Source: SAR202 cluster bacterium
Lineage (GTDB): Bacteria > Chloroflexota > Dehalococcoidia > Lucifugimonadales > VXLM01
Assembly (NCBI GenBank): GCA_022448725.1
Contig: JAKUTR010000015.1
Span: 1 to 58,934, forward strand
Direction: 5' to 3'
DNA length: 58,934 nt
Made by a program: the position numbers and the translations under genes. Below, one piece after another: positions 1 to 20,133 of the stretch (position 1 is its first letter; the number at the start of each line of letters is the position of its first letter). A model generated the notes under the pieces. It saw only the letters and a list, made by a program, of their open reading frames with translations. It was not told where the DNA came from and did no database searches.

Positions 1-471
1 TTTCTTGGTTTGCCTAAAGACCATTCGTCTGCCACGACTATCCCGGACACGCTTGAATGTGACGCCACGAACCTGCAATTGCTCGGCTAGGTCACCGATA
101 TCCCTGGACAACCTTGAGGGGTTGTCCGGGATATCGTCGGTCACCAGCTCAAGAGCGCTGTATAGATCAGTACCAGTGCCTTCCCAGTTGCCAAGCCCCA
201 CGCCAGCATCGAGTAACGTGTTAGTGATTCTCATTTCGGGTACGACATTTGTTGTTGTCCTACTGGCCCGAGGCTTCTTGTTATGCCAAATGTCTGGACG
301 CATGCCGCGCGATAACCAAAGTATTCGTGAGTATGGATCGCAAGCTAGGTTCTTACGCAGCTCCCCATCCGAGGTGTACCAATCACAACGAGCAGGCCAA
401 ACCCTTACCCGAGGTAATCTAAGCCCCTCTAATAGATCAGTTTCTCGCTTGAGTTCTTGTGGTGTTGCCAT
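1..471 (-). CDS. Partial hypothetical protein of an integrated element (runs off left edge)
   Basis: An uninterrupted minus-strand frame starts at ATG 471 (MATPQELKRE...) and is still open at base 1, giving 157 residues without a stop, so the 3' end is missing. The visible C-terminal part is basic and winged-helix-like (it ends ...RDSRGRRMVFRQTKK), which recalls the tails of phage and plasmid replication or primase proteins, but I cannot assign a family. The competing plus-strand frame across the same bases reads as low-complexity Ser/Pro/Arg sequence and looks like a shadow. The gene sits just inside the tRNA-Sec attachment fragment at 715-780, on the side expected for the integrated element, and so is probably its cargo or terminal gene. 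Confidence 0.5.
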   Translation of the reverse strand, partial: MATPQELKRETDLLEGLRLPRVRVWPARCDWYTSDGELRKNLACDPYSRILWLSRGMRPDIWHNKKPRASRTTTNVVPEMRITNTLLDAGVGLGNWEGTGTDLYSALELVTDDIPDNPSRLSRDIGDLAEQLQVRGVTFKRVRDSRGRRMVFRQTKK

Positions 472-560
472 CGTTTATCCGTGAGCAAAACTTCTTTTGA
501 AAAATTAAACCGTCACGCGTAGATCATGTTTATATATAGAAAGGCTAAGCCCTACCCCCC

Positions 561-584
561 TGTGACCCCTTTTGTGACCCCTAT
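561..584. repeat. Two tandem 12-bp repeats (TGTGACCCCTNT type)
   Basis: The motif TGTGACCCC occurs at 561-569 and again at 573-581, exactly 12 bp apart. It lies about 130 bp inside the putative attachment site. Short direct repeats beside an att core often serve as arm-type binding sites of tyrosine recombinases or excisionases. That role is an inference; only the repeat is seen. Confidence 0.45.
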
Positions 585-714
585 CGATAAAAGGTTCCAC
601 TGACTCCGGTCATCTATCACCAAGGTTCGTTGAACCCCTCAGCCCCTTGGCATCGCAGTGGAGGATACTTATCAGCTAGCCCCGCTGAAGTTCTTCGGGC
701 TACGTTTGGGATGC

Positions 715-780
715 CTTCAAAACCGTTTGGCCCTGCCCTTCGGTAGGGTCGGTGGGTTCGACTCCCTCCCGCTCCCGCCA
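715..780 (+). tRNA. selC: 3' fragment of tRNA-Sec (UCA), probable attachment site
   Basis: This is the 3' half of a selenocysteine tRNA. The sequence shows an anticodon loop CTTCAAA (715-721, anticodon TCA at 717-719) and a long variable arm with a 9-bp stem, 729-737 pairing with 742-750 around a CTTC loop. A T loop TTCGACT (757-763) follows, then the acceptor strand CCGCTCCC (769-776), discriminator G and an encoded CCA (778-780). The T stem has one T-T mismatch. The matching 5' acceptor strand (GGGAGCGG expected) is absent upstream, and the bases before the anticodon loop do not pair with the 3' anticodon stem. Homology therefore begins at the anticodon loop, where tyrosine recombinases commonly cross over. 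I read it as the distal att site of an element integrated into selC; the intact gene would lie left of the window. Confidence 0.7.
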
Positions 781-1080
781 CCCCTTGGTGTAGGCGCTAA
801 CGGCCCATCGCATACCTTCTAGATACTGCATTATTTGTTATCTTCTTCCCCTCGATTGTGGCGTTGCGGCCTATCGTGCGACCTATCGTGCGACCTATCA
901 GGATGGAATTCCCTTCAACTCATCAGTCAACGGGATTCCGTCTATCGCACGTTGATCTCGATGTCTGGGTATCCATGAACGCTTCTATGGTACCATTGAC
1001 TAATCAGCAAAACTTTATCTAAAACAGACAAAATATATTCTTTGCTATATGGCCAATAAATTTGAGAGGAACTAGGAAAA
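781..1080. other. Non-coding stretch after the att site, with 12-bp tandem repeats
   Basis: No convincing gene is seen. At 870-899 the 12-mer CCTATCGTGCGA is repeated twice plus a third half copy. An inverted partial copy (TCGCACG) lies at 945-951. The repeats are 180 to 210 bp upstream of the 1081 gene and could be iteron-like or operator sites. A GAGAGGA ribosome-binding site ends the stretch just before ATG 1081. Confidence 0.45.
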
Positions 1081-1758
1081 ATGGCGCGACGAGATTATAA
1101 CACCACGCCAGCAGAAGTTGCAGAACTGTGGGCGCTATGGGATACCCATGTAACGGTAAAAGAAACTATTACGATGCAAGAGACAGCAGATCCACAGGAC
1201 CCAGAGGGCAAGACATTTCTATCCACAAGGTTGTCTGAACGTCAGTTAGGACGACTCCATAGTGAGTGGGCAAAGGATCGCAAGAAATACCCGATGCCAA
1301 GGTTGCGTGAAGAATTCCATTGGCCTCAAGACATAGGTGCTCGTAACGATCAAATCCCCTTTGAACTCTCACAATATACGACCCGGTGTATGGAGTTTTA
1401 CCTTGACGAATTCGAAACATGGCCACGCATTGGGTTGGTCAAGCGATTTGCAGAAGTAGCAGCGGCGCAACCCCTTTGGGACAACAGCCAAACAGCCGTG
1501 TTTGCAGAACTTCTTTGGTATGCAGATTTAATAGGTTCGACTCCTGGTGACCGTGAGAAGGGGACAACTTTGAATCGTCCTAACACCCGTCACATAGAAC
1601 TCTGTGTAATGACTAATCAATCAGACAAAATATCATTGTTAGCAGACAAATATCAAATCCCCGATGAAGTAAAAATAGAGGGCCAATGGGAGGGCTGGTT
1701 ACCGCTCTATGCAGCAACGAGACACGAGGCACCAGAGAGGATGAAGATGCAGCGGTAG
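1081..1758 (+). CDS. Hypothetical protein, 225 aa
   Basis: The frame opens with ATG preceded by GAGAGGA about 10 bases upstream, a good ribosome-binding site. The protein is soluble, rich in Trp, Glu and Arg, and has no signal peptide or membrane segment. The N-terminus (RRDYNTTPAEVAELWALWD) looks helical, and a basic stretch lies near residues 65-80. I do not recognise a family. It stands alone between the tRNA-Sec att fragment and a Zn-ribbon gene and is followed by a terminator-like hairpin, so it may belong to mobile or recently acquired DNA. A regulator or element protein is possible but not shown. Confidence 0.55.
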   Translation: MARRDYNTTPAEVAELWALWDTHVTVKETITMQETADPQDPEGKTFLSTRLSERQLGRLHSEWAKDRKKYPMPRLREEFHWPQDIGARNDQIPFELSQYTTRCMEFYLDEFETWPRIGLVKRFAEVAAAQPLWDNSQTAVFAELLWYADLIGSTPGDREKGTTLNRPNTRHIELCVMTNQSDKISLLADKYQIPDEVKIEGQWEGWLPLYAATRHEAPERMKMQR

Positions 1759-2114
1759 GCGTCGTTGAAGAGTAGGTACTAGAGCGAGACGAGACGCCCT
1801 CGGAAGGGCGCCTCGCTTGGACAGGCCCAGCTATTGCAGCCCAACTGGTTCCAGCAGCTAGGCCGATCACGTAGGAAAAAAATAAACCTACGACGTGGGC
1901 CTTTTTGTATTATCGAGAAAAGTAGCTGACATAGCAAAAATATTGAATCCCACAATTCATGGCTTATTCTAGTTGTCTAGGCCCTGCAGTAATTCATGAT
2001 CGCCTATCAATGCTTGCAAGTATGGGTGCTCACCCGCTAGCTTCATTGAGCACATAACCTTTCGTAACGTGATCACGTTCTTAACTGTAGAAACACTGAA
2101 AAGGGACAGACAAA
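1759..2114. other. Intergenic stretch with a terminator and no gene
   Basis: A small hairpin (CGCCCT-CGGA-AGGGCG) lies about 40 bases after the stop of the 1081 gene, and a stronger terminator-like structure follows at 1861-1906. The rest is AT-rich. An AAGGGA ribosome-binding site for the next gene ends the stretch. Frames seen here on the minus strand lack start signals. Confidence 0.4.
1861..1906 (+). terminator. Probable rho-independent terminator
   Basis: The inner stem CGTAGG (1870-1875) pairs with CCTACG (1887-1892), and the outer GGCC (1861-1864) pairs with GGCC (1898-1901) across an internal loop. A run of five T follows directly at 1902-1906. It would end the transcript of the 1081 gene. 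The internal loop weakens the call. Confidence 0.5.
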
Positions 2115-2324
2115 ATGACTGTAAAGAAAAATAGCCCCCTATGCCCACGTTGTGGAGGCAGGGTATGGCAAGATGCATCTGAGCATGATGATGACAAGTG
2201 CATCGTATGTGGCTGGCGACAGGTAGAGCTCAGCCCGGACGCTATTAGCCAGATAAAAATCTACACTGGGAAGCAACGTATCGAGGGTAATCATCAGCGT
2301 TACAGAACGTTAGCCACTGTATGA
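2115..2324 (+). CDS. Small zinc-ribbon protein, 69 aa
   Basis: The protein carries two CxxC knuckles, CPRCGG near residue 10 and CIVCGW near residue 34, spaced as in a rubredoxin-like zinc ribbon. Such small single-ribbon proteins often bind DNA or RNA or act as adaptors, and they are common in phages and mobile elements. The start is supported by AAGGGA about 11 bases upstream. The stop codon overlaps the ATG of the next gene (ATGA), so the two are probably translationally coupled. Substrate and partner are unknown. Confidence 0.6.
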   Translation: MTVKKNSPLCPRCGGRVWQDASEHDDDKCIVCGWRQVELSPDAISQIKIYTGKQRIEGNHQRYRTLATV

Positions 2325-2494
2325 GTAAAAAATCCAAGGATCAGAGACAGCGAGAGGCATACAAGAAGGCACTATTGAATTCCTTGTGGATTCCAGAGAC
2401 AGAGGAAGAACTTTCTTTAGTGGAGTCGAGAGGACCAGGGAAACCCACCCGCTCAGGACGGCAGTTGATCTCAAAAACGAGATCTTCTGCTTAG
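2321..2494 (+). CDS. Small basic hypothetical protein, 57 aa
   Basis: A short frame begins at ATG 2321, overlapping the stop of the Zn-ribbon gene by four bases (ATGA), and ends at TAG 2492-2494. The product (MSKKSKDQRQREAYKKALLN...) is strongly basic at both ends, with an acidic patch near residues 26-36. The overlap suggests co-translation with the Zn-ribbon protein. No family is recognised. The evidence is the coupling geometry and the intact frame, so it could still be a chance frame. Confidence 0.4.
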   Translation: MSKKSKDQRQREAYKKALLNSLWIPETEEELSLVESRGPGKPTRSGRQLISKTRSSA

Positions 2495-2553
2495 AATCAC
2501 TAGTAGGCGAACAGTGCATTTTGGGTGTTCATTTAGGGTAGTATTTGTAAACC

Positions 2554-4188
2554 ATGGCAAACCCTTATCCTTCATCTGAAAGACACCTGTTTTTCGATAA
2601 TCAGTCCATCGAGATGATTCAGGACTTGAGTCGTGTCATGCATAATCCGGTGAAAACTGGTCCCGCCATTATCTATAAGGATCAGCCTTGGGAAGTACTA
2701 CCATACTTCGGAAATAGCTTGTGGACCATTCTTCACGATCCCGTGGAGGGGCTTTTCAGATGTTGGTACGAAGATTGGGTGTTAGATCCTGATGGCTTAT
2801 CCAATTCAGACGTTGACATAACTGATCCGTCAGTGTCATCGAGTCGCGTTTTGTACGCAGAATCACGTGATGGCCTTAAATGGGACAAACCGTCTCTGGG
2901 GATAGTCCGAGAGGGCGGGCACAATACCAACATCGTTCTTGGCGATTCCCGGGACGGTCCAGAAGTATTTGGTAGCCCGCACGTCCCAACGGTTCTCGAC
3001 GATCCTCTGGATAGTGACCCATCTCGACGATTCAAGATGATCTTTCAGCATATTTCGAAAGGATCTGCTGATACAGATTCAGTCGAAGACCCGTTGGGAG
3101 AGGGCGCTCCTCAGGTTCTACACAGCCCAATCCGCATGGCCTACTCTCATGATGGAATTCACTGGACCGTGGAACCGACCCCGTTAAAGTTCGGTGGTCT
3201 CGGTCCCAAGTTGGGAGATGAGGGGGTATTATCCGCAGATTTAACAAAACGTGAATATGTCCTTCACACACGTCACCCGTATGCATGGCTAATAGATATG
3301 CCAGAAGGTACCCCCAGAACCAAGGCATGGTCCTCGCCGTACTGGCCTGAAAACCCTGCTCGGTACAATAAGCGCCGTATATTCAGAACCACGAGTAGTG
3401 ATCTGATCCACTGGAACGAGCCATACGAAGTGTTCGCCGCTGATGATGAGAGCGACAACTTAGACGACTCATTTTACAGTTTTGCATCATGGCCGCTATC
3501 GACACTCGAAACGGGGGTAAAACGACATCCCCATCCTGGGAATAACCTGCACGTAGGGATAGTTAACGTCTTCCACCAAACTGAGAACGTACTGGACGGT
3601 CAGTTAGCATATAGCCGCGACGGACTAACGTGGCAACGCGCGGGGCAACGCCAGCCTTTCCTAAACCGTGGGGCAGTTGGGGAGTGGGATGAGATGATGT
3701 CATGCGTACCAAGCATTCCAATCCGTATTGGTGATGAACTTTACATCTACTATGGAGGCTCTAACGCACACCACGATTGGTGGGTTGTCGGTGCACGTGA
3801 AGGCCTTGACGTCCCTGAGGCCAAAGACATTAATCTTGTTCAGCACGGAATTGGACTTGCAAGATTACGCTTCGATGGGTTTGTCTCTTTACGCACTGGT
3901 CTAGTTAGAGAAGGATTGCTCGTAACCCGTTCAGTGGTAGCCGGAGGCACACAACTGGTGATAAATGCCAACTGTCATACAGGAGGCTATGTTGACGTTG
4001 AGATGACTGACCAGCAAGACAACGTAATCGAAGGTTTCTCGAGAGCCGCAGTGGACAGATTCACAGGCAATGCTATCGCCCATCGGGTTAAGTGGGGACA
4101 ATCCGATAGATGGCCCCACAATCAAGTCGTCAAGGTGCGTTTCTGGATGCGAAACGCGGACTTATTTTCTTTCAGGTTTGCTGACTGA
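2554..4188 (+). CDS. Beta-propeller glycosidase-like protein (GH32/43-like fold)
   Basis: A 544-residue protein with four spaced motifs of the S-x-D-G-x-x-W type (SRDGLKW, SHDGIHW, SSDLIHW, SRDGLTW). These mark the blades of a five-bladed beta-propeller as in GH32/GH43/GH68-type glycosidases and related proteins of unknown activity. A conserved-looking YYGGSNAHHDWW stretch follows near residue 400, and a beta-rich C-terminal domain of about 110 residues ends the protein. There is no signal peptide, so it is probably cytoplasmic. Related proteins are frequent in Planctomycetes and marine Chloroflexota, where they are annotated only as glycosyl hydrolases. The substrate cannot be read from the sequence. 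The gene stands alone; the ribosome-binding site before ATG is weak. Confidence 0.6.
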   Translation: MANPYPSSERHLFFDNQSIEMIQDLSRVMHNPVKTGPAIIYKDQPWEVLPYFGNSLWTILHDPVEGLFRCWYEDWVLDPDGLSNSDVDITDPSVSSSRVLYAESRDGLKWDKPSLGIVREGGHNTNIVLGDSRDGPEVFGSPHVPTVLDDPLDSDPSRRFKMIFQHISKGSADTDSVEDPLGEGAPQVLHSPIRMAYSHDGIHWTVEPTPLKFGGLGPKLGDEGVLSADLTKREYVLHTRHPYAWLIDMPEGTPRTKAWSSPYWPENPARYNKRRIFRTTSSDLIHWNEPYEVFAADDESDNLDDSFYSFASWPLSTLETGVKRHPHPGNNLHVGIVNVFHQTENVLDGQLAYSRDGLTWQRAGQRQPFLNRGAVGEWDEMMSCVPSIPIRIGDELYIYYGGSNAHHDWWVVGAREGLDVPEAKDINLVQHGIGLARLRFDGFVSLRTGLVREGLLVTRSVVAGGTQLVINANCHTGGYVDVEMTDQQDNVIEGFSRAAVDRFTGNAIAHRVKWGQSDRWPHNQVVKVRFWMRNADLFSFRFAD

Positions 4189-4491
4189 GCCAGTTGTATG
4201 GATCGTAGATCTGAAAATCGGATCGCTGGGGTCGTGTAGCAGGTGTTCATCAAGGGGTATTCGGGTTTATATATACCCCCACTGACAATATTGGCGGCAG
4301 TATTGGTATTACTATAGGTTCATGCGATTTTTAGAGATATAGACGCACTGGCAGCCATACCAAGTATGGATACGGATGTTTTGGAACCCTTCCTAATCCT
4401 TGCTCGTCTTATAGAATCCTAGTTCCCGATTGGCAAACGGGTGATCTGGCTGCTGATAAAACCTCAGGCAGGAACTTAACGTTAAACCTGC
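4189..4491. other. Intergenic stretch between convergent genes
   Basis: No gene is seen. A hairpin GGGGTAT (4254-4260) / ATACCCC (4273-4279) with a 12-base loop lies about 70 bases after the propeller gene and may help end transcription, but it lacks a T run. The rest holds nothing I can name. Confidence 0.35.
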
Positions 4492-5772
4492 TTAGACCAC
4501 TTCAGGCGGCCTGATCTTGGTAAGTTTAATAGCTCCCACTCTCAAATTTTCCATGCGGGTTATTTCGAGTTTCAGGTCTTGGTACTCAAACTGCTCGCCC
4601 TGGTCCGGGATATGCCCAAGTATTTCCAAAACAAAACCTGCAACAGTATCGTATTCGCCTTCAGGGAGCTCGATTCCTAGCTCTGCTGTAGCCTCATCTA
4701 TGCTCATGCTTCCTTCTATTTGGAAAGTGTCAGTCCCGATGACCTCATACTCTTCTTCTGGACTGAGACCTTCCTCACCCACTCTCCCCACAACCTCTTC
4801 AAGAAGACTTTTTGCGGTAACAAGACCAGCTATCCCCCCAAACTCGTCGATCGCAACCGCCATTTGATTACCAGCTTGCCTGGTTTCTTCAAATAGTTCT
4901 GCGATTCTCTTAGTTTCCGGTACGAAGTAGACATCTCTAACAAAATCAGTTAGGGGTTCCTGATCAGTAATAGTCTTGGATGCCATTCCCTTAAGAATAT
5001 CTTTTGAAGACACGATGCCGATAACGTTATCAGTGTTTTCTTTAAAAACAGGGAAGCGAGTATGTGAATGATCAGCATAAATATCCAAGAACTCCAGTAA
5101 GGTGGTGTCTTTCTCCACAAATACTATCTCGGTTCTTGGAGTCATTACTTCGCGAACTTCTCTGTCGCCGAATCGGAATACCCTCTCAAGACGATCTGCC
5201 TCACTTGGATCAAACTCTCCTTCTGCTTCTCCAATGTCAATCAGCGTGCGGAGTTCCGCTTCAGTAATTGACGAATCGGCCCGGTCGTCACGTTTTCCTA
5301 TATCTGCTATGCGGCTTGCCCATTGGAGAACCACTACTAGCGGTAACAGAGCCAGTTCCACGATTCTTAGTGGTCGTGTGAATAGCATCGCGGTCCCAAT
5401 AGGGAAACGAACTGCTACAGTTTTAGGTATGATCTCCCCCAATAGCAGTAGGGTTGTTGTGCCTACAACAGTTGCTATTACTAGCCCAAGTCCCTGATTT
5501 TTAACCAACCCTATAATCAAAGCGGTGATTAATGCGGTGAATGCTACATTTACCAAATTATTCCCCAAAAGGATTGTTGATAAAAGCCTGCCTGGTTGTT
5601 CGAGCATGTGTGCGACCCTTCGGGCTGCCGGGACACCTTCATTTACTAGGTGCGCGAGCCTTGCAGTTCGTCGAACCGATAGGAAGGCAGCCTCTGAACT
5701 CGAAAAGAAAGCAGATAGAATAACTAGCAATACTATAACGGCGACATCTGTCGGACCCGTCCCGGTCATCAC
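4492..5772 (-). CDS. CorC/TlyC (CNNM-type) membrane protein with CBS domains
   Basis: A 426-residue hemolysin-family protein. The N-terminal DUF21/CNNM domain (about 1-190) starts with a hydrophobic helix and the typical FFSSSEAAFLS stretch, and has three to four membrane segments including GNNLVNVAFTAL. A tandem CBS pair follows (about 205-325, with MTPRTEIVFV and FPVFKENTDNVIGIVSSKDI). A CorC_HlyC domain closes it (about 340-420). The family is linked to magnesium or cobalt export and homeostasis through nucleotide-sensing CBS domains; the name hemolysin is historical. The gene is monocistronic and convergent with the propeller gene. The protein opens MMTGTG, so the second Met is an alternative start. 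Confidence 0.85.
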   Translation of the reverse strand: MMTGTGPTDVAVIVLLVILSAFFSSSEAAFLSVRRTARLAHLVNEGVPAARRVAHMLEQPGRLLSTILLGNNLVNVAFTALITALIIGLVKNQGLGLVIATVVGTTTLLLLGEIIPKTVAVRFPIGTAMLFTRPLRIVELALLPLVVVLQWASRIADIGKRDDRADSSITEAELRTLIDIGEAEGEFDPSEADRLERVFRFGDREVREVMTPRTEIVFVEKDTTLLEFLDIYADHSHTRFPVFKENTDNVIGIVSSKDILKGMASKTITDQEPLTDFVRDVYFVPETKRIAELFEETRQAGNQMAVAIDEFGGIAGLVTAKSLLEEVVGRVGEEGLSPEEEYEVIGTDTFQIEGSMSIDEATAELGIELPEGEYDTVAGFVLEILGHIPDQGEQFEYQDLKLEITRMENLRVGAIKLTKIRPPEVV

Positions 5773-5987
5773 TATCCTCCTAAGTACACTTAGAACACTC
5801 TACGTGAAATCTTCATATATATATTACAGGCAGTATCATTTAAGTTCCCCTAATCTATAGGGTGAAGTTTTCCGCTGTTTCTACCCGATCCTATACCTGG
5901 CAATCGACGTGAATGTGACATAATCAGTAGGCTTTACATATGCTACTAAGTGTGTGAACCCATTCGTCCCGTCCTCAGGAGACATAG

Positions 5988-6905
5988 GTGGACTTCGGAT
6001 TCTCGATACCTTCAGGCGGAATAAACGCAACGCCAGAGATTATTGCTCGTCTCGCCAGACGTGGTGAGGAGTTGGGGTTCGCTTACATTGGGATCCCTGA
6101 CCATATTGTTATTCCTAATAATGTAGAGTCGCGATACCCTTACAGCGAAGATGGCACGTTTAGCGGATCGGGATATATTCTTGACCAACTAACGGTAGCG
6201 TCCTTTATATCAGGACAGACCTCGAAGGCGCGTATTTTGACGTCAGTTTTGGTGCTTCCTCACAGGAGTGCTGTTTTGGCAGCCAAGATGCTAGCTTCAA
6301 TAGATGTACTTTCGAATGGCCGCTTGACTGTAGGCTGTGGGGTGGGCTGGCTGCGAGAAGAGTTCGAGGCGATTGGGGCACCGGCTTTTGACGAACGAGG
6401 ATTTGTTGCTAATGAGTATATATCCTGTTTCAAGGAGCTTTGGACGAACGATAATCCCTCATTTGATGGTGAGTACATTCAGCTGTCAGACATCATCTTT
6501 GAACCCAAACCCACCCAGAAACCGTACCCTCCAATTTGGATAGGCGGAGAGAGCCCAGCTGCACTGCGAAGGGCCGCAGAGCTTGGTGATGGATGGTATC
6601 CTCTCGGTTCCAACCCTCGTTTCCCGTTGCAAACAGCGGAACAGTTTTCAAATGCGCTTGAGAAGATTTATAGACATGGGGAGAATATAGGCCGAGACTT
6701 TACAAAGTTCGATCTAGCGTACAGTTCTCAGAGCAGTTTCACAGAGACTACAGATCAGATCGTGGAAAATATCCGTGCATTCAAAGCTGTAGGCGTGCAG
6801 CACTTGATGGTTAGTTTAGGCGCTACTTTTTCTGCTCCTGTATCGGCGACCATTGAAAGTATGGAACGCTTTGCATCCGAGATTGCTCCACAAGTTAACT
6901 CATAG
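5988..6905 (+). CDS. LLM-class flavin/F420-dependent oxidoreductase
   Basis: A 305-residue bacterial luciferase-like TIM barrel. It shows the PDHI stretch near residues 37-40, GRLTVGCGVGW followed by EEFEAIG at 111-130 (a hallmark of the family) and PPIWIGGESPAALRRAAE near 185. Members use reduced F420 or FMNH2 to reduce or oxygenate small organic substrates; which cofactor and substrate apply here cannot be told. The start is GTG at 5988, supported by CAGGAGA about 6 bases upstream and by the family N-terminus MDFGFSIP. It stands alone. Confidence 0.8.
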   Translation: MDFGFSIPSGGINATPEIIARLARRGEELGFAYIGIPDHIVIPNNVESRYPYSEDGTFSGSGYILDQLTVASFISGQTSKARILTSVLVLPHRSAVLAAKMLASIDVLSNGRLTVGCGVGWLREEFEAIGAPAFDERGFVANEYISCFKELWTNDNPSFDGEYIQLSDIIFEPKPTQKPYPPIWIGGESPAALRRAAELGDGWYPLGSNPRFPLQTAEQFSNALEKIYRHGENIGRDFTKFDLAYSSQSSFTETTDQIVENIRAFKAVGVQHLMVSLGATFSAPVSATIESMERFASEIAPQVNS

Positions 6906-7307
6906 GGATGTCTGGTTCGAAACGGGTCTATTTCAGCAACGAAGTATGACATTGTATTGATAAGCATGTTTTTATAGTAATGTAAATATCGCAATACATA
7001 AATAGACATTAATTTACGTGTAACTTACCTTATTGCGCATAAGGAATTAAGGCTGATGTGCTCTTTTGGATGATCGCATTTTCCGTTATTTGAAGGCATC
7101 GACGTTACCTAAGCTCTTTACACCAATCTATGGCCACTGTCAGCAAGTTTGTCTCTGCCCTCATTTCGATTTTGGCACGTCCCAGAAAGTTCTAGATAGA
7201 GCACGAACGTGCGGAGTGTAGAGGGTTCTCCTTATTCTCATTTGACTGGCACAAGTTGGTATTACCGTAGTATAGTTGCGGGAGCGTAGCAGCTTAGGAG
7301 GTGGGAT
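6906..7307. other. AT-rich intergenic stretch
   Basis: No gene is supported. The first half is very AT-rich; the second half presumably holds the promoter of the DUF1501 gene, but no clear -35/-10 pair with normal spacing is seen (TTGACT at 7242-7247 has TAGTAT 20 bases later). A strong AGGAGGT ribosome-binding site ends it just before ATG 7308. Confidence 0.3.
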
Positions 7308-8447
7308 ATGCCTAACGTTGCGAATACGAAGCCACCGGTTCTTGTAGTCGTTCAACTTAGTGGTGGGAACGACTTTATGAACACCGTCGTTCCATACAAT
7401 GAACCACGGTACTATGATTATCGACCTGCGCTAAGTGTTCAACCTGACAGCCTTATACCTATTGATGCTGACATCGCGTTCCATTCCAACGTCAGCCCAC
7501 TGAAGGAATTCTGGGATGCGGGTAAGCTTGCGATCGTACAGGGTGTAGGTTATCCGAACTCTAGTAGGTCTCACTTTCGGTCAATGTATATTTGGCATAC
7601 TTGTGAGCCAGATAGGATCTCAACCGAAGGATGGCTAGGTATGGCGGTCCGCGAATTTGACCCTGCGAAAGAGAATGTTCTCACTGCTGTAAATTTCGGG
7701 CGAGGACTTCCGCAGGCATTGGTTTCAAAGGGAGTTCCGGTAACTTCTGTAAGCGATCTGGACAATTATGGTTTGATGACAGGTATCTCCAGTGACGATG
7801 AAAGATACACAGCGCTTGCTCGATTCAAGGAGATGTATGCGCCCGCTGTAGGTACTGGACCAGTCATGGAATACTTAGCTGAAACTGGGCTTGGTGTTCT
7901 TGATGGCGCTGAGATTATAAAACAAGCGCCACTTATGTATCGGTCTGATGTCGAATACGCCGGAAACGAGATAGCTCAGGGTCTACGGGATGTTGCGCGT
8001 GTTCATCTCGCGGATCTTGGAACACGGATTTTCTATACCGTTCAAAACAATTATGACACCCACTCCAACCAAAATCCTACGCACGATAATCTTATTGCCG
8101 ACTTAGCAAAGGCTATAGCGGATTTCTTTCAAGACCTAGAGGACCATGACGCGGCTGATAATGTAACGATGCTCGTATTTACGGAATTCGGGCGGCGGGT
8201 TGCAGATAACGGAAGTGGTACCGACCATGGCTCAGGGGGCGGCGCATTCATCATTGGGAACAATGTGAATGGTGGTTTGTATGGGGAGTATCCTTCGCTT
8301 GACCCATTAGATCTCGTTGATGGTGAAGACCTTAAGCATACCTACGATTACCGGGGTATGTACTCGTCCATGCTTGAGCAATGGATGGGGCTTGATCCTG
8401 TCCCGATCGTGGGAGGTTCTTTCGAACAGATTCCGGTTCTTAGCTGA
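7308..8447 (+). CDS. DUF1501 domain protein
   Basis: A 379-residue protein with the DUF1501 core: VVQLSGGNDFMNTVVPY near residue 14, FHSNVSPLKEFWDAGKLAIVQGVGYP near residue 60, HFRSMYIW near residue 90, and VFTEFGRRVADNGSGTDHGSGG near residue 290. The fold belongs to the alkaline phosphatase/sulfatase superfamily; activity is unproven. Most DUF1501 proteins carry a Tat signal; this one starts almost directly with the core strand, so it looks cytoplasmic or N-terminally short. The ribosome-binding site TAGGAGGTGGG is excellent and fixes the start. Its 3' end lies 15 bases from the convergent membrane-protein gene. Confidence 0.8.
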   Translation: MPNVANTKPPVLVVVQLSGGNDFMNTVVPYNEPRYYDYRPALSVQPDSLIPIDADIAFHSNVSPLKEFWDAGKLAIVQGVGYPNSSRSHFRSMYIWHTCEPDRISTEGWLGMAVREFDPAKENVLTAVNFGRGLPQALVSKGVPVTSVSDLDNYGLMTGISSDDERYTALARFKEMYAPAVGTGPVMEYLAETGLGVLDGAEIIKQAPLMYRSDVEYAGNEIAQGLRDVARVHLADLGTRIFYTVQNNYDTHSNQNPTHDNLIADLAKAIADFFQDLEDHDAADNVTMLVFTEFGRRVADNGSGTDHGSGGGAFIIGNNVNGGLYGEYPSLDPLDLVDGEDLKHTYDYRGMYSSMLEQWMGLDPVPIVGGSFEQIPVLS

Positions 8448-8462
8448 GAGATGTCCCTACGA

Positions 8463-9047
8463 CTATAAGGGGTCGTATTTTTGTGGTTCTGCGGACTCCA
8501 CCGGGTCTTCTCGTTTAGTGTCACCAAAGGCCCGCTCCCAGACGTAAGGATTGTTGGCATCCGAGATACCCTCATCAATGTAATACTGCTCCGGGGGTCT
8601 CCAGATATACCACGTTAATGGCCAATGCTTGGCGATATCGACATAGCTTGGTTTTTTCTCTGGGTCTGGCACGATCATTAAGAATGCGGTCAGTGTCAGT
8701 GACAGTAAGCTCCCAGGCAACAAAAGCAAAGGCCTTGTAATAGGGAAGCGGAGCCAGAGCCAGCTACTACCTGCCAGCAGGCCAAGGAATGGTAACCAAG
8801 CGACAGTTAAGAAAAAGAACAGTATCAGTCCCCAGCCGACAAAGATAATTGAGAGTCTGCCCAAAAGGCGCGCTAAGCGATCGATCGGTTGTAGGGAAAA
8901 GGTAATTAGTGAGGCGAGAGGGCGTACAACGGCTACAGCGATGAACGTGAAGACGTCTCCAGGAGCGTTGCGTCGTGCCCATGAAACGCGCTCTGCAAGG
9001 TCATTAATTCGCCAGTGCCACTCGAGGAATCCCCAATCAAACGGCAC
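8463..9047 (-). CDS. Hypothetical membrane protein, 194 aa
   Basis: Two strongly hydrophobic segments are visible, about residues 66-92 and 104-126, between an amphipathic Arg/Trp-rich N-terminus and an acidic cytoplasmic-type tail with Trp and Tyr clusters (TWYIWRPPEQYYIDEG). No family is recognised. The start is GTG at 9047, supported by AGGAGGTG five to six bases upstream. The gene is convergent with the DUF1501 gene. It may be an envelope protein; nothing more specific can be said. Confidence 0.6.
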   Translation of the reverse strand: MPFDWGFLEWHWRINDLAERVSWARRNAPGDVFTFIAVAVVRPLASLITFSLQPIDRLARLLGRLSIIFVGWGLILFFFLTVAWLPFLGLLAGSSWLWLRFPITRPLLLLPGSLLSLTLTAFLMIVPDPEKKPSYVDIAKHWPLTWYIWRPPEQYYIDEGISDANNPYVWERAFGDTKREDPVESAEPQKYDPL

Positions 9048-9114
9048 ACTGCACCTCCTGCATGGCTTGATTCTAGCATACAGCCGAGGTCTTCAGGCTT
9101 TGGTATGATGCCTG

Positions 9115-9669
9115 ATGGTGGTATCTAAATATTTAAACCCTAATACAATCCGGAGCGTCAAGTTAGTGAGTTCAACTGCAATCGAACAGACCGTAATATC
9201 TTCACTTCAAGCGACGGGAGCTTCGTATCAGATCATCGACATTGATCCAAAATACGCTGATACCCTGGAGTTTTGTAAACAGTACGATTATCGAGTAGAG
9301 GAGTGTGGAAATACCATCATCGTCCGGTCTAAAAGAGGAGAGAAGAAGTTCAGTGCTTGCGTAGTACGTGGGTCTGATAGGCTTGACGTCAACAGGAGGG
9401 TCAAGGCTTTGATGCAGGTCTCTAGACTTTCCTTTGCTTCATCGGATGAAACTCGAGAGCTTACGGGTATGGAAATTGGCGGTGTGACCCCTTTCGACCT
9501 TCCCAATGATATTGTCATTTATGTTGATGCTAAGGTAATGCAGTTAGATTCAGTCATCTTGGGTTCAGGTAGTAGATCTTCCAAGATAAAGGTAGCACCA
9601 TCGGTCTTTGAGCAACTATTAAACACGGAAATTATTGAGGGCTTGTCGCTGTCTCCAGAACTTGGCTAG
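9115..9669 (+). CDS. YbaK/ProX-type aminoacyl-tRNA deacylase-like protein
   Basis: A 184-residue protein with the YbaK/INS-like fold. The signature runs from CVVRGSDRLDVNRRVKAL (about residue 85) to a TGMEIGGVTPFDLP stretch (about residue 122), followed by the strand IVIYVDAKVM. This matches the TG-x-x-x-G-G-V-x-P-F motif of YbaK, ProXp and the ProRS editing domain, which hydrolyse mischarged aminoacyl-tRNAs such as Cys- or Ala-tRNAPro. The usual lysine of the motif lies in the less conserved SDRLDVNRRVK segment. Its 3' end overlaps the convergent MFS gene by 38 bases (9632-9669). Confidence 0.7.
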   Translation: MVVSKYLNPNTIRSVKLVSSTAIEQTVISSLQATGASYQIIDIDPKYADTLEFCKQYDYRVEECGNTIIVRSKRGEKKFSACVVRGSDRLDVNRRVKALMQVSRLSFASSDETRELTGMEIGGVTPFDLPNDIVIYVDAKVMQLDSVILGSGSRSSKIKVAPSVFEQLLNTEIIEGLSLSPELG

Positions 9670-10843
9670 CTTGCCTTGGCAAGCCAATTTTTTGCCGTAA
9701 GGTTACAACTACAACCGCGGTGATGAGCAGGGTCGCTCCAAGTAATCCTAGTGTCACTACTAATCCAAAAAGATGAATTGATATCCCTCCAAGGATTGGC
9801 CCCGTAACTTTCGCTGCATTCTTTAACGTACCAACGAGCCCCAAGCTGCCACCGATATTCTTGTCGGGGACTCGCTTTGCTACAAGAGCAGTTGCTGCAG
9901 GGAACACCAAGGCTTGCGCCAGTCCAATCATTACGGCGGGTAGGAAGAGAAAGGCTGCTGATTTGGTCATTGCCACTAGTGGCAGCGCTAAGCCCATAAG
10001 GCTGATACCGGTGGCTATTGTTGGTACGTAACCAATCCGGTCGCTGATTCTTCCGCCCAGAGGCGATCCGGTCAAGTGCACTCCCTCCTGGACAGCAAAA
10101 TAAAGTCCTGCCATTGCCGCGTTCGACCCCATGCCCAGTACGTGCAATGGTAGGAATGCCCTCAGGACGTACTCTGCAAGAAGAACACTGGCATTCATAC
10201 CTCCTGCGATCCACACGGCAGTTGTCTTAGCGCCCGCCGTAAGAGAATCAACCGTTTGTCGGACTACAGATACTGACGGTCGTCCCCGGTTCGGTACTTG
10301 TTCAGGAAGTAGCATTACAGGGATAAAAGCGATACTGCTAACAAGCCCAACAATTGTGAATGCTGCTTGAGGAGTGATTGTCAAAAGCATAACCCCGGCG
10401 GCTAGCGGGCCTATTACATACCCAGCATTGCGGGCTGTTGTAAACCAGGCGATGCGTTCGGCACGGTTAGCGGGTGACAGCTCTACCACGTAAGCTAGCG
10501 TAACTGGGCCGTAGATTGCTGTGGCAATTCCATGTATAACTCGGATATAAAAAAGCTCTTCTGGAGTCCTTACCAGTAAATAGACAAAAGGCATAAAAGT
10601 AAAGAACCCCGTACCAATTAGAAGCCAAACCCGTCGTCCCCATCTGTCGGATAGGATACCGAAGAATGGTTTGAGTACCATCCCGGTTAGCGTGGAAACG
10701 GATACGATCAATCCTAGCATCACATCAGTAGCTCCAAGAGTCGCGGCAAAGATGGGCAATAAAGGGGTCTTTCCAACTTGATATGCTGATCGCACGACGA
10801 AGTCGGCTGATGTAATCAGTACGAACGCTTTTGGACGGTACAC
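9632..10843 (-). CDS. MFS transporter
   Basis: A 403-residue protein with about 12 membrane helices. The cytoplasmic loop between helices 2 and 3 reads GILSDRWGRRVWLL, the standard major-facilitator motif A, and a second copy (GGRISDRIGYVP) sits in the C-terminal half. It is of the drug/metabolite exporter type (DHA1-like). The start is GTG at 10843, directly abutting the TAA stop of the upstream Asp-box gene, which implies translational coupling and a shared transcript. The exported substrate is unknown. Confidence 0.8.
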   Translation of the reverse strand: MYRPKAFVLITSADFVVRSAYQVGKTPLLPIFAATLGATDVMLGLIVSVSTLTGMVLKPFFGILSDRWGRRVWLLIGTGFFTFMPFVYLLVRTPEELFYIRVIHGIATAIYGPVTLAYVVELSPANRAERIAWFTTARNAGYVIGPLAAGVMLLTITPQAAFTIVGLVSSIAFIPVMLLPEQVPNRGRPSVSVVRQTVDSLTAGAKTTAVWIAGGMNASVLLAEYVLRAFLPLHVLGMGSNAAMAGLYFAVQEGVHLTGSPLGGRISDRIGYVPTIATGISLMGLALPLVAMTKSAAFLFLPAVMIGLAQALVFPAATALVAKRVPDKNIGGSLGLVGTLKNAAKVTGPILGGISIHLFGLVVTLGLLGATLLITAVVVVTLRQKIGLPRQASQVLETATSPQ

Positions 10844-13800
10844 TTATGAGCCAGCTACGATCAGTGGTATCTCGTGCTCGTGTAATAACTCCACGAATTG
10901 GGCTAGATCTTGGTCAATGACAGACTGGAACTCAGTAAAAGCTGCTCCTGCCCTGTCCGAAAAGACAGTGTAGACTTCGTGTTGTTGAGTTGTTGGTCGG
11001 CTATCTGCTGACTCTATAGCAGCCATCAACTCCTTGAGCTTTACGTTCAAGCCAGCAGCATTTGCAATTCTATCGAGACCCTCCTCAATGGGGGCGTCAG
11101 TTTGAATTAATTGAAGTTCTATACTGTCCAGACTGCTTATGAGCTCGTCGACCGTTTCGGCTACTGCATCAGCTTTGCCAACTCCTCTGGCCCTATCAAT
11201 CCATTGCTTGACTTGCTTTCGAGTACTGCGCAGAGTATTAATTGTATTGTGTACTTCAGAGAGTTTGTCTCTAACGTTCACCATTAATTCGAACTGTTCT
11301 GCGAAGTCCGGGTCTGAAGTTGTGACACGGGGGTCCGAAATTACCTCAAAACTCTCTCTTTGTGATTTGTCGCCGGCTGTCAAAACTACGTGGTAGGTAC
11401 CAGGTGGGACAATTGGCCCCTGAATAGACTCTGATTTTGGTCCGTCTTTAACTACTTTTGATGAAGACTTGTACCGGAGGTCCCAAATCAAACGATTCGC
11501 GCCAGTCTTAGTTGGTAAGAATGGGCTTTCAGGTTTCTCTTCTTCGTTAAGGTCGTCGTAGTTGGATGGTTTTGGTTGGTAGGTCCTGACGATAGATCCT
11601 TTGGAGTCTAGGATGGAGAGCTCCAAGTTTGTAGGATCTTCTGAATCTAGGTAATAGTGAATTGCTGTTCCTTCAGCAGGATTCTTCCCAGCGTCAAGCC
11701 AGGTCTCGTTCATGTGTTCATCGTCATCTCGAGTCTCTTCCCAAGTAGCTGCAGTTCCAAGTCTGGTCATATACTTCTTACCAGGCCCTGTACTGCGCCC
11801 AGCCGTGCCTTGCATGGCTGATCGATAAGTGGTGGCAGGTGCAAAAAGATGTGTTTCGGTAATTGGAGGGAAAATCGCCATTCTGCGAATTTGTCGAAGA
11901 ACGGTGAGGTCATCCAGAATCCAGAAAGAACGACCGTGAGTGGCAATGGCAAGTTCGTCGCCTTTAACTGCCATGTCATGGACCGGTACGATTGGCAGGT
12001 CAGATTGTAGTGAGTGCCATTGCTTGCCGTCATTAAATGACACATACACACCGTGTTCTGTACCTGCGTATAAGAGTCCTTGAGCCTCTGTGTCTGAGCG
12101 TACGACCCAAACATGGTCGTCATTGGGAATTCCTTCTGTGATCTTTGTCCATGACACCCCATAGTCCGTAGTCTTGAATATGTACGGGTTATAGTCAGCA
12201 AGCCGGTATCTACTAACGCTTATGTAGGCGCAGCCGTCGTCGTAGGGCGATGGTTCGACTATAGTTGTCGTACCCCACTCAGGCATGTCTGGAGGGGTGA
12301 TATTGTCCCATTTTGAGCCGCCATCACGCGAAACGTGTACTAAACCATCATCAGAGGCGGCCCAAAAAACGCCTTTCTTCACAGGGGACTCGGCAAAGGC
12401 AAAGATTGTCCCAAAGTTCTCAACGAAAGTGGTGTCCTTTGTAATGGGGCCGCCAGAGGCTTCCATCTTTGTAGTGTCACCCCGAGTTAGATCTGGGCTA
12501 ATGCTTTCCCAAGAGTGTCCCTCGTCTTCAGAACGGAAGACTTGTTCTCCTGCCACGTACAGGGTCTGACCGTCATGGGGGGAAAAGACGATTGGGTAGG
12601 TCCACTGGAAACGATGTTTATGATCTTTGACCCCCGAGCCATACACAAACTCGGGCCACACGGAAACTATGCGTGTTTGTCTCGTCTTATGGTCGTATCG
12701 ATGTAAAGAATCTCCACCACCACTTGAGCTTCCGATAGCTCCTGAGAAAACCACGTTGGAATCGTTGGGGTGAACGGCGATCTGACCACTTTCCGAACTG
12801 CCGACAAAGTAGCTGTCACTGTACGGGATTGCGCCTTTTGACATATCCCTGCTTGGGGTGGATATTGCACTATTATCTTGCTGAGTTGCGTATACTCGGT
12901 AGGGGAATTCGTTATCTGTCGCCATCCGGTAGAACTGAGCGGTTGGTTGGTTGTAGATCGTTGACCAAGATTTGCCGCCATTTAGAGAGACTGTTGCTCC
13001 GCCGTCGTTACCCTGAATTATTCGCTGTGGATTTTGGGGGTCAATCCAGATATCGTGGTGATCCCCGTGAGGGAGACTGACTTCGTCAAATGATCGGCCT
13101 CCATCCACGGATTTCCAACACTTTAGGTTCATGATCCAAACCGTTTCAGGGTCAACAGGGTCACCGATGACATGGCAGTAATACCACGGACGTTGAACTA
13201 GGGCAGGGCTGTCGTTAATACGTTCCCAGTTATCTCCATTGTCTTCTGATCGGTATAGGCCACGGCCACCTTTATCTGCTTCTATAATTGCCCATACTCT
13301 GCCCTTTTGTGCTGGAGATGCCGCAATACCCATCCTACCTTTTAAGCCCTTTGGCAGACCGGTATTGGCAGTTATGTCTTGCCAGGTTGAACCTCCGTCG
13401 GTTGTACGATAAAGACTTGAGTCGGGTCCACCAGAAGAGAAGGTCCAGGGTTGGCGGCGAGCCTCCCAGATCGAAGCGAAAAGGATGCGAGGATTATTTG
13501 GATCCATGGTCAGGTCTGCCACACCCGCTCCGGCACTCCTATGCAGGACTAGATCCCATGTGCTACCACCATCCGTAGTGCGGTAAACGCCCCGCGCGGC
13601 GTTGTCACCGAAAATGTCGCCCAAGGCTCCGACGTATGCCACGTCTGGGTTAGTAGGGTGGATTCTAATGCGGGAGATGTGCTTTGTTTCTGTCAGACCA
13701 AGATGTGTCCATGTGTTACCACCGTCAGTAGTTTTATATACTCCATCGCCGCCCGATACGTTCCCTCGGGTGCAAGCCTCGCCTGTACCAACGAAAATAA

Positions 13801-14041
13801 CGTTTGGGTCAGATTCAGAAATAGCGAGTGCGCCGACCGGAGCACTGTTGAAGTACCCATCTGAGATGTTTCGCCAATATGTGCCTGCATCATCAGACAT
13901 CCATACTCCACCGTTGCAAGCTCCGAAATAAAAAGTTGCAGGCTCCGTCGGATGTCCTGCAACGGCCACAACACGGCCTCCACGATGAGGCCCAATATTC
14001 CGCCATTTAAGGGCGCTAAACTGAGGGATGTCTGTTGTCAT
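10844..14041 (-). CDS. Large Asp-box (VPS10/sortilin-like) beta-propeller protein
   Basis: About 1065 residues. At least ten Asp boxes of the S/T-x-D-x-G-x-x-W type are seen (for example TTDGGNTW, TTDGGSTW twice, SEDNGDNW, SEDEGHSW, SRDGGSKW, TTDYGVSW). They build a ten-bladed VPS10/sortilin-type or exo-sialidase-like propeller over the first 700 residues. The C-terminal 350 residues carry a beta-sandwich and a helical, coiled-coil-like stretch. Relatives are annotated glycosyl hydrolase without proven activity. No signal peptide is seen, unusual for this family. I chose ATG 14041 because GGAGA lies eight bases upstream; a longer frame starts six codons earlier at GTG 14059. It is followed without a gap by the MFS gene. 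Confidence 0.75.
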   Translation of the reverse strand: MTTDIPQFSALKWRNIGPHRGGRVVAVAGHPTEPATFYFGACNGGVWMSDDAGTYWRNISDGYFNSAPVGALAISESDPNVIFVGTGEACTRGNVSGGDGVYKTTDGGNTWTHLGLTETKHISRIRIHPTNPDVAYVGALGDIFGDNAARGVYRTTDGGSTWDLVLHRSAGAGVADLTMDPNNPRILFASIWEARRQPWTFSSGGPDSSLYRTTDGGSTWQDITANTGLPKGLKGRMGIAASPAQKGRVWAIIEADKGGRGLYRSEDNGDNWERINDSPALVQRPWYYCHVIGDPVDPETVWIMNLKCWKSVDGGRSFDEVSLPHGDHHDIWIDPQNPQRIIQGNDGGATVSLNGGKSWSTIYNQPTAQFYRMATDNEFPYRVYATQQDNSAISTPSRDMSKGAIPYSDSYFVGSSESGQIAVHPNDSNVVFSGAIGSSSGGGDSLHRYDHKTRQTRIVSVWPEFVYGSGVKDHKHRFQWTYPIVFSPHDGQTLYVAGEQVFRSEDEGHSWESISPDLTRGDTTKMEASGGPITKDTTFVENFGTIFAFAESPVKKGVFWAASDDGLVHVSRDGGSKWDNITPPDMPEWGTTTIVEPSPYDDGCAYISVSRYRLADYNPYIFKTTDYGVSWTKITEGIPNDDHVWVVRSDTEAQGLLYAGTEHGVYVSFNDGKQWHSLQSDLPIVPVHDMAVKGDELAIATHGRSFWILDDLTVLRQIRRMAIFPPITETHLFAPATTYRSAMQGTAGRSTGPGKKYMTRLGTAATWEETRDDDEHMNETWLDAGKNPAEGTAIHYYLDSEDPTNLELSILDSKGSIVRTYQPKPSNYDDLNEEEKPESPFLPTKTGANRLIWDLRYKSSSKVVKDGPKSESIQGPIVPPGTYHVVLTAGDKSQRESFEVISDPRVTTSDPDFAEQFELMVNVRDKLSEVHNTINTLRSTRKQVKQWIDRARGVGKADAVAETVDELISSLDSIELQLIQTDAPIEEGLDRIANAAGLNVKLKELMAAIESADSRPTTQQHEVYTVFSDRAGAAFTEFQSVIDQDLAQFVELLHEHEIPLIVAGS

Positions 14042-14214
14042 AAACGTGTCTCCGATCACATTATTTTGAAAGCCGGTATTCTCTCATGGCTTAGAACCGG
14101 CTTCAACAAGGCTATTGTTACAAACATCTTCGGGCCACGGTTTTTATGTTGCTGATCGCTCCTAATCCGTTTTCTGGTATTGGTAGCGTCGATAGCGACT
14201 GCTAAAATACCGGT

Positions 14215-15000
14215 GTGTCTAATAGCCCTCACATACGGTTAACTCAAGTAAGTCATTCATACCCCACGGCGATTGGAGTGTTGAATGTTCTCTCGGATAT
14301 AGAGTTGAGCGTGCCCCAAGGCAGTTTTTTGTCCGTTATAGGTCCCAGTGGGTGTGGTAAGACAACCCTTCTAAAACTGATGGGAGGGCTTCTTTCACCT
14401 GTGTCTGGTGAAGTAAGCATCGGGGACAATCGGCCAAAGTTTATGCAAGAGCGTAAGCGAATAGGATTTGTCTTTCAGGATTCCTCACTGCTCCCGTGGA
14501 GATCAGTCGAGAGGAATATTACGTTACCCCTTGAGATTAATAGTAGAGGCACTCACGAGGATAGCTCCCGGGATTTGATCCGTAGCGTTGGTCTTGAGGA
14601 GTTCCGAGATACATATCCACACCAACTTTCTGGAGGCATGCGGCAGAGAGTTGCTTTGGCAAGAGCGTTGGCGACTAATCCAGAGGTTCTGTTATTGGAC
14701 GAACCTTTAGGTTCCCTAGATGAAGTGACACGGACGATCATGCGTTATGAGGTGTTGCGTATCTGGAGCGATACCTCTCAGACGACTGTCATGGTTACGC
14801 ACAGTATCCCCGAGGCTATTATCATGTCGGATGTGGTGGTAACCCTATCATCACGACCTGGTCGCGTAATTGGTAGCGTGCCAATCGACCTTCCGCGGCC
14901 ACGCACAGATGATATGGAGGATTCTTCCGTTTTTCTTAAATCTGCGAGTGAAATTAGACAAATGTTGTTTGGGACTGGATTACGCGGAAAAGATGTCTAG
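14215..15000 (+). CDS. ABC transporter ATP-binding protein (NitT/TauT/Thi type)
   Basis: A 261-residue ABC ATPase. Walker A is GPSGCGKTT (about residue 43), the Q loop FQDSSLLPW, the signature LSGGMRQR, Walker B VLLLDEPLGSLD and the switch His VTHS. The SSLLPW stretch after the Q loop is typical of the SsuB/TauB/NrtD/ThiZ group. The start is GTG at 14215. It is first of three overlapping genes (ATPase, permease, binding protein) that form a complete importer at the membrane. A likely ligand is a thiamine pyrimidine precursor or another small organic molecule (see the binding protein). Confidence 0.85.
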   Translation: MSNSPHIRLTQVSHSYPTAIGVLNVLSDIELSVPQGSFLSVIGPSGCGKTTLLKLMGGLLSPVSGEVSIGDNRPKFMQERKRIGFVFQDSSLLPWRSVERNITLPLEINSRGTHEDSSRDLIRSVGLEEFRDTYPHQLSGGMRQRVALARALATNPEVLLLDEPLGSLDEVTRTIMRYEVLRIWSDTSQTTVMVTHSIPEAIIMSDVVVTLSSRPGRVIGSVPIDLPRPRTDDMEDSSVFLKSASEIRQMLFGTGLRGKDV

Positions 15001-15814
15001 CTGTAACAAACTAAACGACATGGTTCCTACTGCTACAAATACTCCATTTATATCGACACTACTTAAGGCAGCGATTGTTCCAGGGGTAGTCTTGACCGGG
15101 GTTGGTTTGGTGTGGGAATTGTGGGTGCGGCTCGCCGATGTAAAGACCTATCTTGTGCCACTGCCATCCGCTGTTGTTGGACGTATAGTTGGCGATGTTG
15201 GGTACTTTGTTGGACATGGCTCGGTAACGGTAATAGAAGCCACTATGGGCTTTGTATTAGGCGCATTTGTAGCATTCGCTGCAGCGAGTTTAATGGCTCA
15301 CTCTAAATCACTAGAACGGGCTCTCTATCCCCTCGCCCTTTTAGTCAAGGTCACGCCCGTCGTGGCGATTGCTCCCCTGTTTGTTATCTGGTTTGGGTTT
15401 GGGTCATTTCCTAAAATATTGATTGCCGCGCTAATCACGTTTTTCCCCATGTTAGTTAATACGGTTATAGGATTGCGCCACGTTGATCGTACGGCTCTTG
15501 ATTTTTTCAATTCCCTAGGAGCATCCCGGTGGGAAATTTTCATCAAATTACGGATTCCGAGTTCTATGCCCTACGTTTTCGCTGCTGTTAGAATAGCGGT
15601 GCCCCTTTCAATAATTGGCGCGGTGGTGGGTGAATGGTTTACTGGTGATAGGGGGCTTGGTAGTGTCATAATCGTTGCGCACAATGATATTGATACGCTG
15701 ACGCTATTCGCAGCCATCGTAGTTCTCGCCATAATTGGCGTTAGTGCGACTACGCTTGCAGCGTTCGTCGAACGAAGAGTTCTTTTTTGGCATGAATCTA
15801 TGGTGTTAATGTGA
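14993..15814 (+). CDS. ABC transporter permease (NitT/TauT/Thi type)
   Basis: A 273-residue membrane protein with about six helices and the BPD_transp_1 EAA loop (LGASRWEIFIKLRIPSSMP) near residue 180. The start ATG 14993 overlaps the 3' end of the ATPase gene by eight bases, so the pair is translationally coupled. A longer frame back to 14870 exists but would lie deep inside the ATPase gene and lacks the family N-terminus. It forms the channel of the importer encoded here. Confidence 0.85.
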   Translation: MSSCNKLNDMVPTATNTPFISTLLKAAIVPGVVLTGVGLVWELWVRLADVKTYLVPLPSAVVGRIVGDVGYFVGHGSVTVIEATMGFVLGAFVAFAAASLMAHSKSLERALYPLALLVKVTPVVAIAPLFVIWFGFGSFPKILIAALITFFPMLVNTVIGLRHVDRTALDFFNSLGASRWEIFIKLRIPSSMPYVFAAVRIAVPLSIIGAVVGEWFTGDRGLGSVIIVAHNDIDTLTLFAAIVVLAIIGVSATTLAAFVERRVLFWHESMVLM

Positions 15815-16830: not shown

Positions 16831-16841
16831 CTTCGAAGCTA

Positions 16842-18890
<2,049 letters not shown>

Positions 18891-18947
18891 AAACCGCTAT
18901 CCGGGCGAATGGCACTAGGGGGCTCAATCAAGTTACGGCCAGAGGGT

Positions 18948-19127
18948 CTAAAGACGTCCTCGGCCTGTGAACCGATGGATCGCGATCAGAACTCCGCCGA
19001 TGGCACAACATGCGGCTCCAATTAAAAGCGGAGTTAGACCAGCTAAGGCGCTGCTCAATAGGAATACAACTCCAAATATGACTAAGACATACGCTACAGC
19101 TGCGACGGCGAATCGAAGACTTTCCAT
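18948..19127 (-). CDS. Small membrane protein, 59 aa
   Basis: A short minus-strand frame from ATG 19127 to TAG 18948-18950. It encodes MESLRFAVAAVAYVLVIFG... with two hydrophobic helices (about 6-28 and 30-50) and a basic tail (HRFTGRGRL), the pattern of a small two-helix inner-membrane protein. A GAGGAA ribosome-binding site lies six bases before the ATG. It sits between the DUF255 gene and the tRNA-Arg gene, on the same strand as both. The function is unknown. Confidence 0.55.
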   Translation of the reverse strand: MESLRFAVAAVAYVLVIFGVVFLLSSALAGLTPLLIGAACCAIGGVLIAIHRFTGRGRL

Positions 19128-19339
19128 GAGTTTCCTCTACTGAACGGTAGGAATCTTGCTACTCTACACATCAGGAGCATAATTGGAAAGGTTGGTTGGT
19201 TTTTGGAGATGTTGTTTTTAGGCGTAACATGTGTGATCGCCTTGGCCATGTCTAGAAAACGTCTGTAAACCGCTTTTTAAATAGGCAAGTACTTTTCTTG
19301 TGTGGAATTTGCGTATTGGAATAACCTGGCATGGGGAGA

Positions 19340-19417
19340 TGGCGTCCCTGGCAGGATTCGAACCCGCGACCCGCGGCTTAGAAGGCAGCTGCTCTATCCA
19401 GACTGAGCTACAGGGAC
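19340..19417 (-). tRNA. tRNA-Arg (UCU)
   Basis: A complete cloverleaf is read on the minus strand. Acceptor GTCCCTG pairs with CAGGGAC, with discriminator G and an encoded CCA (19340-19342). The D arm is GCTC/GAGC, the anticodon loop CTTCTAA (anticodon TCT) and the T arm GCGGG-TTCGAAT-CCTGC. The anticodon stem has one T-C mismatch at its middle pair. UCU decodes AGA and AGG arginine codons. Confidence 0.93.
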
Positions 19418-19457
19418 GCGATCACGCTTTTAGTTTAGCAATCACTCAAATAGAGGG

Positions 19458-19949: not shown

Positions 19950-20133
19950 TTACAACCTACCTTTTAAGCTGTTTGGTACAGGCTCACCGAGTCTAGCAGC
20001 ATCTAAAGAGAGTGGTCAATGCCCGGTATTATTACAAAATACACACAAAATATACGTGGTGTATATATTTACGCCGGCCTGAAAAAGCTTTTCGAAAATT
20101 TAGAAAAAGACGGAATAGAGGTGAAAATTTGCA

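Follow-up and report, generated by a model that had tools for sequence, protein, structure and literature searches.

The window analysed here, a stretch of 58,934 nucleotides that makes up the entire contig C7 of the SAR202 cluster genome G000 (a 2.09-Mb assembly in 75 contigs, 95% complete), carries on its plus strand, at positions 715 to 780, the 3' half of a gene for the selenocysteine tRNA (tRNA-Sec). It opens with the anticodon loop CTTCAAA (anticodon UCA), continues through the 3' side of the anticodon stem, a variable arm of 9 bp (GGCCCTGCC/GGTAGGGTC) and a T arm whose loop is TTCGACT, and closes with the 3' side of the acceptor stem and CCA. No 5' half of a tRNA lies to the left of 715. 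A sequence-only reading of the same DNA had described this anatomy, including the UCA loop, the 9-bp variable arm, the T loop, the CCA and the missing 5' half, and the description was confirmed. Neither ARAGORN nor Rfam at its gathering threshold calls the feature, as is expected because half of the tRNA gene is missing. Against a covariance model made for tRNA-Sec 3' halves it scores 85.9 bits (E = 3.4e-22, searched over window positions 1-20000), and at that score the match is not due to chance. Short direct repeats flank the half at 564-583 (GTGACCCC, twice) and 861-898 (CCTATCGTGCGA, in tandem); these could be candidate arm sites of an integrase.

A complete tRNA-Sec gene (selC) with the same 3' end is found on a second, separate contig of the genome, C22, at positions 12732-12829. 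Its last 66 nucleotides match window positions 715-780 at 66 of 66 positions. Followed leftward, the match ends exactly at 715, where the anticodon loop begins, which bears out the earlier claim that homology begins at that loop. The intact gene scores 68.4 bits against RF01852 (cut-off 47) and is called by ARAGORN as tRNA-SeC (tca); the gene order on C22 is nifS-like gene, trxA, selC, contig end. An A-C mismatch is present in the acceptor stem of this tRNA (locus L012), and tRNA-Sec genes across the order commonly have a U-U mismatch in their T stem. Genes for selA (518.5 bits, cut-off 268) and selB (335.5 bits, cut-off 242) are also present in G000, so that tRNA-Sec, selA and selB, each above its curated cut-off, class the genome as selenocysteine-decoding. 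According to the sequence-only reading, selenocysteine use would be noteworthy in its own right. That expectation does not stand: tRNA-Sec exceeds the Rfam cut-off in 52 of 60 relatives and is near-universal in the order, and selenocysteine use is therefore ordinary there.

No homologue was found for the 714 bases to the left of the half. Positions 1 to 471 are occupied by an orphan open reading frame on the minus strand that runs off the contig end (157 amino acids seen) and that has no match in 250 genomes of the order, IMG/VR, phage records, Pfam, PHROGs or NCBIfam. The interval 1-714 contains no recognisable mobile-element gene, has no match elsewhere in its own genome and is not set apart by base composition from the rest of the window. 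We infer that this sequence is the end of an inserted element specific for selC.

To the right of the half, the window returns to chromosomal DNA. Two genomes of the same genus keep the genes from 7308 onward immediately after selC: in G003 the order is trxA, selC, about 0.3 kb, and then homologues, in unchanged order, of the window genes at 7308, 8463, 9632, 10844, 14215 and beyond, and in G001, whose contig starts only ~100 bp before selC, about 0.7 kb separates selC from the same genes up to 10844. The flank at 7308-16830 is thus collinear with the sequence that closely follows selC in G003, and also in G001 as far as its contig extends, and the right part of the window therefore belongs downstream of selC. 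Farther right, at 19340-19417 on the minus strand, lies an intact tRNA-Arg gene (tct).

The 6.5 kb at 781-7300 is extra DNA, absent between selC and the gene at 7308 in both congeners, and was probably accreted. Its first gene (1081-1758, plus strand) encodes a rare protein with homologues in only two other genomes of the order and one paralogue on contig C47; the interval also holds a gene for a CNNM/CorC-type protein (4492-5772) and one for an F420-type LLM oxidoreductase (5988-6905). These observations, together with the tandem 3' halves found in another genome of the order, G229, raise the possibility that 781-7300 is an older selC insertion and that the half at 715-780 is the internal junction of two elements. 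A search with filters off, however, revealed no second, decayed 3' half above noise at the right end of the interval (6900-7310), its genes are mostly of ordinary chromosomal types, and the congeners may instead have lost the 6.5 kb by deletion. We regard two successive insertions as conceivable, with a probability clearly below even.

Position 715 very probably marks the attR-like right-hand end of DNA that a tyrosine recombinase inserted, with the crossover in the anticodon loop of selC. In the proposed sequence of events, a tyrosine recombinase would cross an element into selC at the anticodon loop; the element would itself carry a copy of the 3' half, so that an intact selC, the one on C22, would be rebuilt at the other end, and the chromosomal 3' half would be displaced to 715-780. 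The sequence-only reading had noted that tyrosine recombinases cross over at the anticodon or T arms of tRNA genes, and the anticodon loop is a known tRNA subsite: such integrases often use the anticodon loop as a 7-bp overlap, the 3'-half copy carried by the element restores the tRNA gene, and the displaced fragment stays at the far end (PMC4383910, PMC8371274).

The same reading placed an island to the left of 715 with the intact selC beyond it. The intact gene on C22, the unrelated sequence to the left of the half and the chromosome to its right agree with that arrangement, but C22 stops 11 bp beyond the tRNA and the island is not assembled: the G000 bin yielded no integrase, excisionase or second element end, and its tyrosine recombinases number only two, XerD (above cut-off) and a second Xer-type protein. 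An integrase was likewise expected beside selC; in G000 there are only the Xer-type proteins, whereas integrases do occur beside selC halves in relatives. The missing integrase would be of the kind seen there. The earlier interpretation gives the correct type of event, with the G000 island inferred and not directly seen.

The end of C22 can be explained by the assembly. The stretch common to the window (715-791, plus strand) and the right end of C22 is 77 bp long; it reaches the end of C22 and includes 11 bases beyond the CCA. Another pair of contigs in the genome, the start of C11 and the end of C6, also has exactly 77 bases in common, so the assembler's k was most likely 77, with C22 stopping at a branch in the assembly graph. 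Both contigs break at an assembly repeat, and the linkage of C22 to the window is therefore not proven. The coincidence of the 77-bp k-mer repeat with the junction and with the end of C22 would also suit a chimera in which the left 714 bases were misjoined at the repeat. To be joined there, however, the left sequence would need its own copy of the 3' half, which would point to attP or attR in any case, and the same anatomy lies within single contigs of ten other genomes; we judge a chimera improbable.

The length of the shared stretch bears on the state of the population. In 19 other genomes the identity between the intact gene and the displaced half extends 0-8 bases past the CCA, mostly 0-2, ending at or near the CCA; in G000 it extends at least 11 bases, a poor fit to a simple attL/attR pair. 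Some cells may have an uninterrupted selC that runs into the right side of the window and others the island, the assembly having merged both. C22 continues past the CCA exactly as the window does for those 11 bases before stopping at the 77-base branch, and no third contig of G000 offers another continuation of the repeat. Because the shared stretch runs 11 bases beyond the CCA, coexistence of occupied and empty sites is its simplest reading, but the same picture would arise from attP identity that extends beyond the tRNA or from a second, related element at 781 onward. We put a mixed population at a little under an even chance, and treat it as a refinement of the integration explanation, not its opposite.

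A covariance model for the 3' half of tRNA-Sec, built from 27 sequences and run against 250 genomes of the order, revealed cut 3' halves in at least 27 of them, in 8 families (G000 and at least 26 others; G015 and G058 are weaker cases). This prevalence is a lower bound, second copies having been fully listed for 160 chosen genomes that include those already seen to have two copies. In two genomes, G164 and G068, no intact tRNA-Sec copy was found. Nearly all of the displaced halves begin at the anticodon-loop motif CTTCAA or a decayed form of it, and in most of the 27 genomes the cut falls at the first base of the anticodon loop, as in G000, or within a few bases of it. Their 5' sides bear no relation to tRNA-Sec, with 16-41% identity across the 5' half. 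Identity between a displaced half and the intact gene of its own genome ranges from 100% (G131, G220, G223, G228 and G000) down to ~70-80%, and the halves therefore differ in age. Where the half and the intact gene share a contig, which is the case for 11 copies in 10 genomes (G015, G144, G162, G208, G215, G216, G227, G229 twice, G230 and G249), all 11 lie downstream of the intact selC on the same strand, an arrangement expected by chance for one copy in four. The offset from the start of the intact gene to the start of the half is 1.1 to 7.4 kb.

These regularities also bear on the idea that the half is a functional tRNA fragment, such as a terminator or regulatory RNA, or a random duplication, in either case unrelated to integration. 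The half gene does fold stably, but the uniform cut at the anticodon loop next to unrelated 5' sides, the strict downstream orientation, the integrases that adjoin halves in relatives and the decay of many copies all speak against such an origin, to which we give practically no credence. Integration is the reading we retain, and selC is a recurrent landing site for mobile DNA in this order. The claim is one of recurrence and does not extend to enrichment over other tRNA genes.

Several further features of tRNA-Sec loci in the order were observed. One short contig (L107, G130:C329) has two intact tRNA-Sec genes 1.66 kb apart, at 731-828 and 2389-2486, with different upstream sequences, and a divergent second complete tRNA-Sec (L140, G171:C64, 2937-3032) occurs beside a typical one in its genome. 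Displaced halves at L142, L143, L113 and L154 (G146, G121, G144 and G164) have extra bases inside the variable arm. Contigs begin or end at tRNA-Sec in G144 (L113/L114), G129 (L120) and G136 (L119), and the two G144 contig ends have a tRNA-Sec region of ~99 bases, by reading, in common; such contig ends suggest alternatives at selC that were left unresolved within populations. In several genomes of family f41, similar AGGCAYGAAATC-type sequence follows directly after the CCA of displaced halves (L115, L132, L134, L135, L137 and L139) and is perhaps a shared element end.

In five genomes a PF00589 tyrosine integrase overlaps a selC half or lies no more than ~135 bp from it. The integrase gene lies 9 bp past the CCA on the opposite strand in G131, lies about 70 bp from the half in G126 and about 130 bp from it in G136, is found about 130 bp beyond the displaced half in G066, and overlaps the 3' end of the half in G071 (25.9 bits, just below the Pfam cut-off of 27.1). 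In a sixth genome, G163, a fragment of an integrase is found 1.5 kb from the half. By sequence these proteins form two groups, G131/G126/G136/G163 and G066/G071 (50% identity), and their named relatives come from MAGs of Chloroflexota, Dehalococcoidia and the SAR202 cluster. Elsewhere in Chloroflexota, relatives of the first group adjoin tRNA-Ser and tRNA-Lys genes, a pattern that would fit target switching between tRNA genes. In the element beside selC at L111 (G131:C47, 9436-17180, in selC orientation), the integrase is accompanied by a large TIR-like repeat protein, perhaps a defence gene, and by an ORF resembling a terminase small subunit; both were named by eye. A pattern search for viral contigs with a tRNA-Sec 3' half, and a search for one near integrase relatives, gave weak matches only, none at tRNA-Sec level.

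Most compact intervals in the order carry ordinary genes and no integrase. The same-contig intervals that were read, from intact selC to half or from half to half, are 1.0-6.2 kb long, contain ordinary genes and have no integrase. Their cargo includes a monomeric isocitrate dehydrogenase in G215 (with an equally long protein in G216, near-identical by eye), a short-chain dehydrogenase in G249, an alpha/beta hydrolase in G229, an exonuclease in G227, a NIPSNAP protein in G208, a DUF3105 protein in G162 and, in G144, two tandem kinase-like proteins, one of which was tested. Such intervals are either decayed islands or cassettes moved in trans. A bolder version of the latter, which we consider unlikely, would make selC an accretion platform for integrase-less cassettes of ~1-4 kb, each with one to three ordinary genes between halves of ~66 bp, moved by trans-acting selC-specific tyrosine integrases in an integron-like manner and polymorphic within populations.

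In Enterobacteria, selC is a site of island integration and is rebuilt by the incoming element. Our loci resemble those islands, and the Pf-tRNA-Sec prophages of Pseudomonas (PMC7549136), in having tRNA-Sec as the target and the gene rebuilt by the element. The Pf repeat is only the last 27 bp of the gene, whereas the one in our loci begins at the anticodon loop, and the phylum and the integrases are different. The loci also resemble class A of the Islander scheme (PMC4383910), with an intact tRNA gene and a displaced 3' fragment in one genome, an anticodon crossover and a tyrosine integrase (beside the halves in relatives), although Islander demands an integrase between the ends and the compact selC intervals mostly lack one. 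Tycheposons, as PMC10872708 describes them with reference to the original work, are likewise tRNA-bounded cargo elements found in marine bacteria, where they combine tyrosine recombinases with genes of metabolism, but they span 4-200 kb and use other tRNA genes, unlike the selC intervals.

Another of the closest analogues comes from Dehalococcoides, also in the Dehalococcoidia, where tandem islands lie downstream of ssrA and are bounded by copies of the ssrA 3' end (PMC3146451). Besides belonging to the same class, the two systems share a single-copy RNA gene as target, diverse cargo and the accretion of some units without an integration module. They differ in that the ssrA islands have a tmRNA target, a 20-bp repeat and the serine recombinase DsiB (PMC3146451), and the loci described here have selC, a half of ~66 bp and, in relatives, PF00589 integrases. 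The selC insertions are a parallel to the ssrA islands in a related order. No paper on selC insertion in this order was found in a literature search that mostly excluded subscription journals. Islands targeted to tRNA genes are already known as a kind of system; the lineage and the recurrence are new. A lone scar such as the one at 715-780 is ordinary; the interest lies in its repeated occurrence across the order.

Most SAR202-type Chloroflexota have yet to be cultured, and their gene gain is poorly known. Displaced tRNA-Sec 3' halves provide a handle for acquired cargo that can be scanned for in any genome. These observations also show recurrent targeting of a single-copy recoding tRNA in many selenocysteine-retaining families, with integrases whose relatives adjoin the genes for tRNA-Ser and tRNA-Lys.
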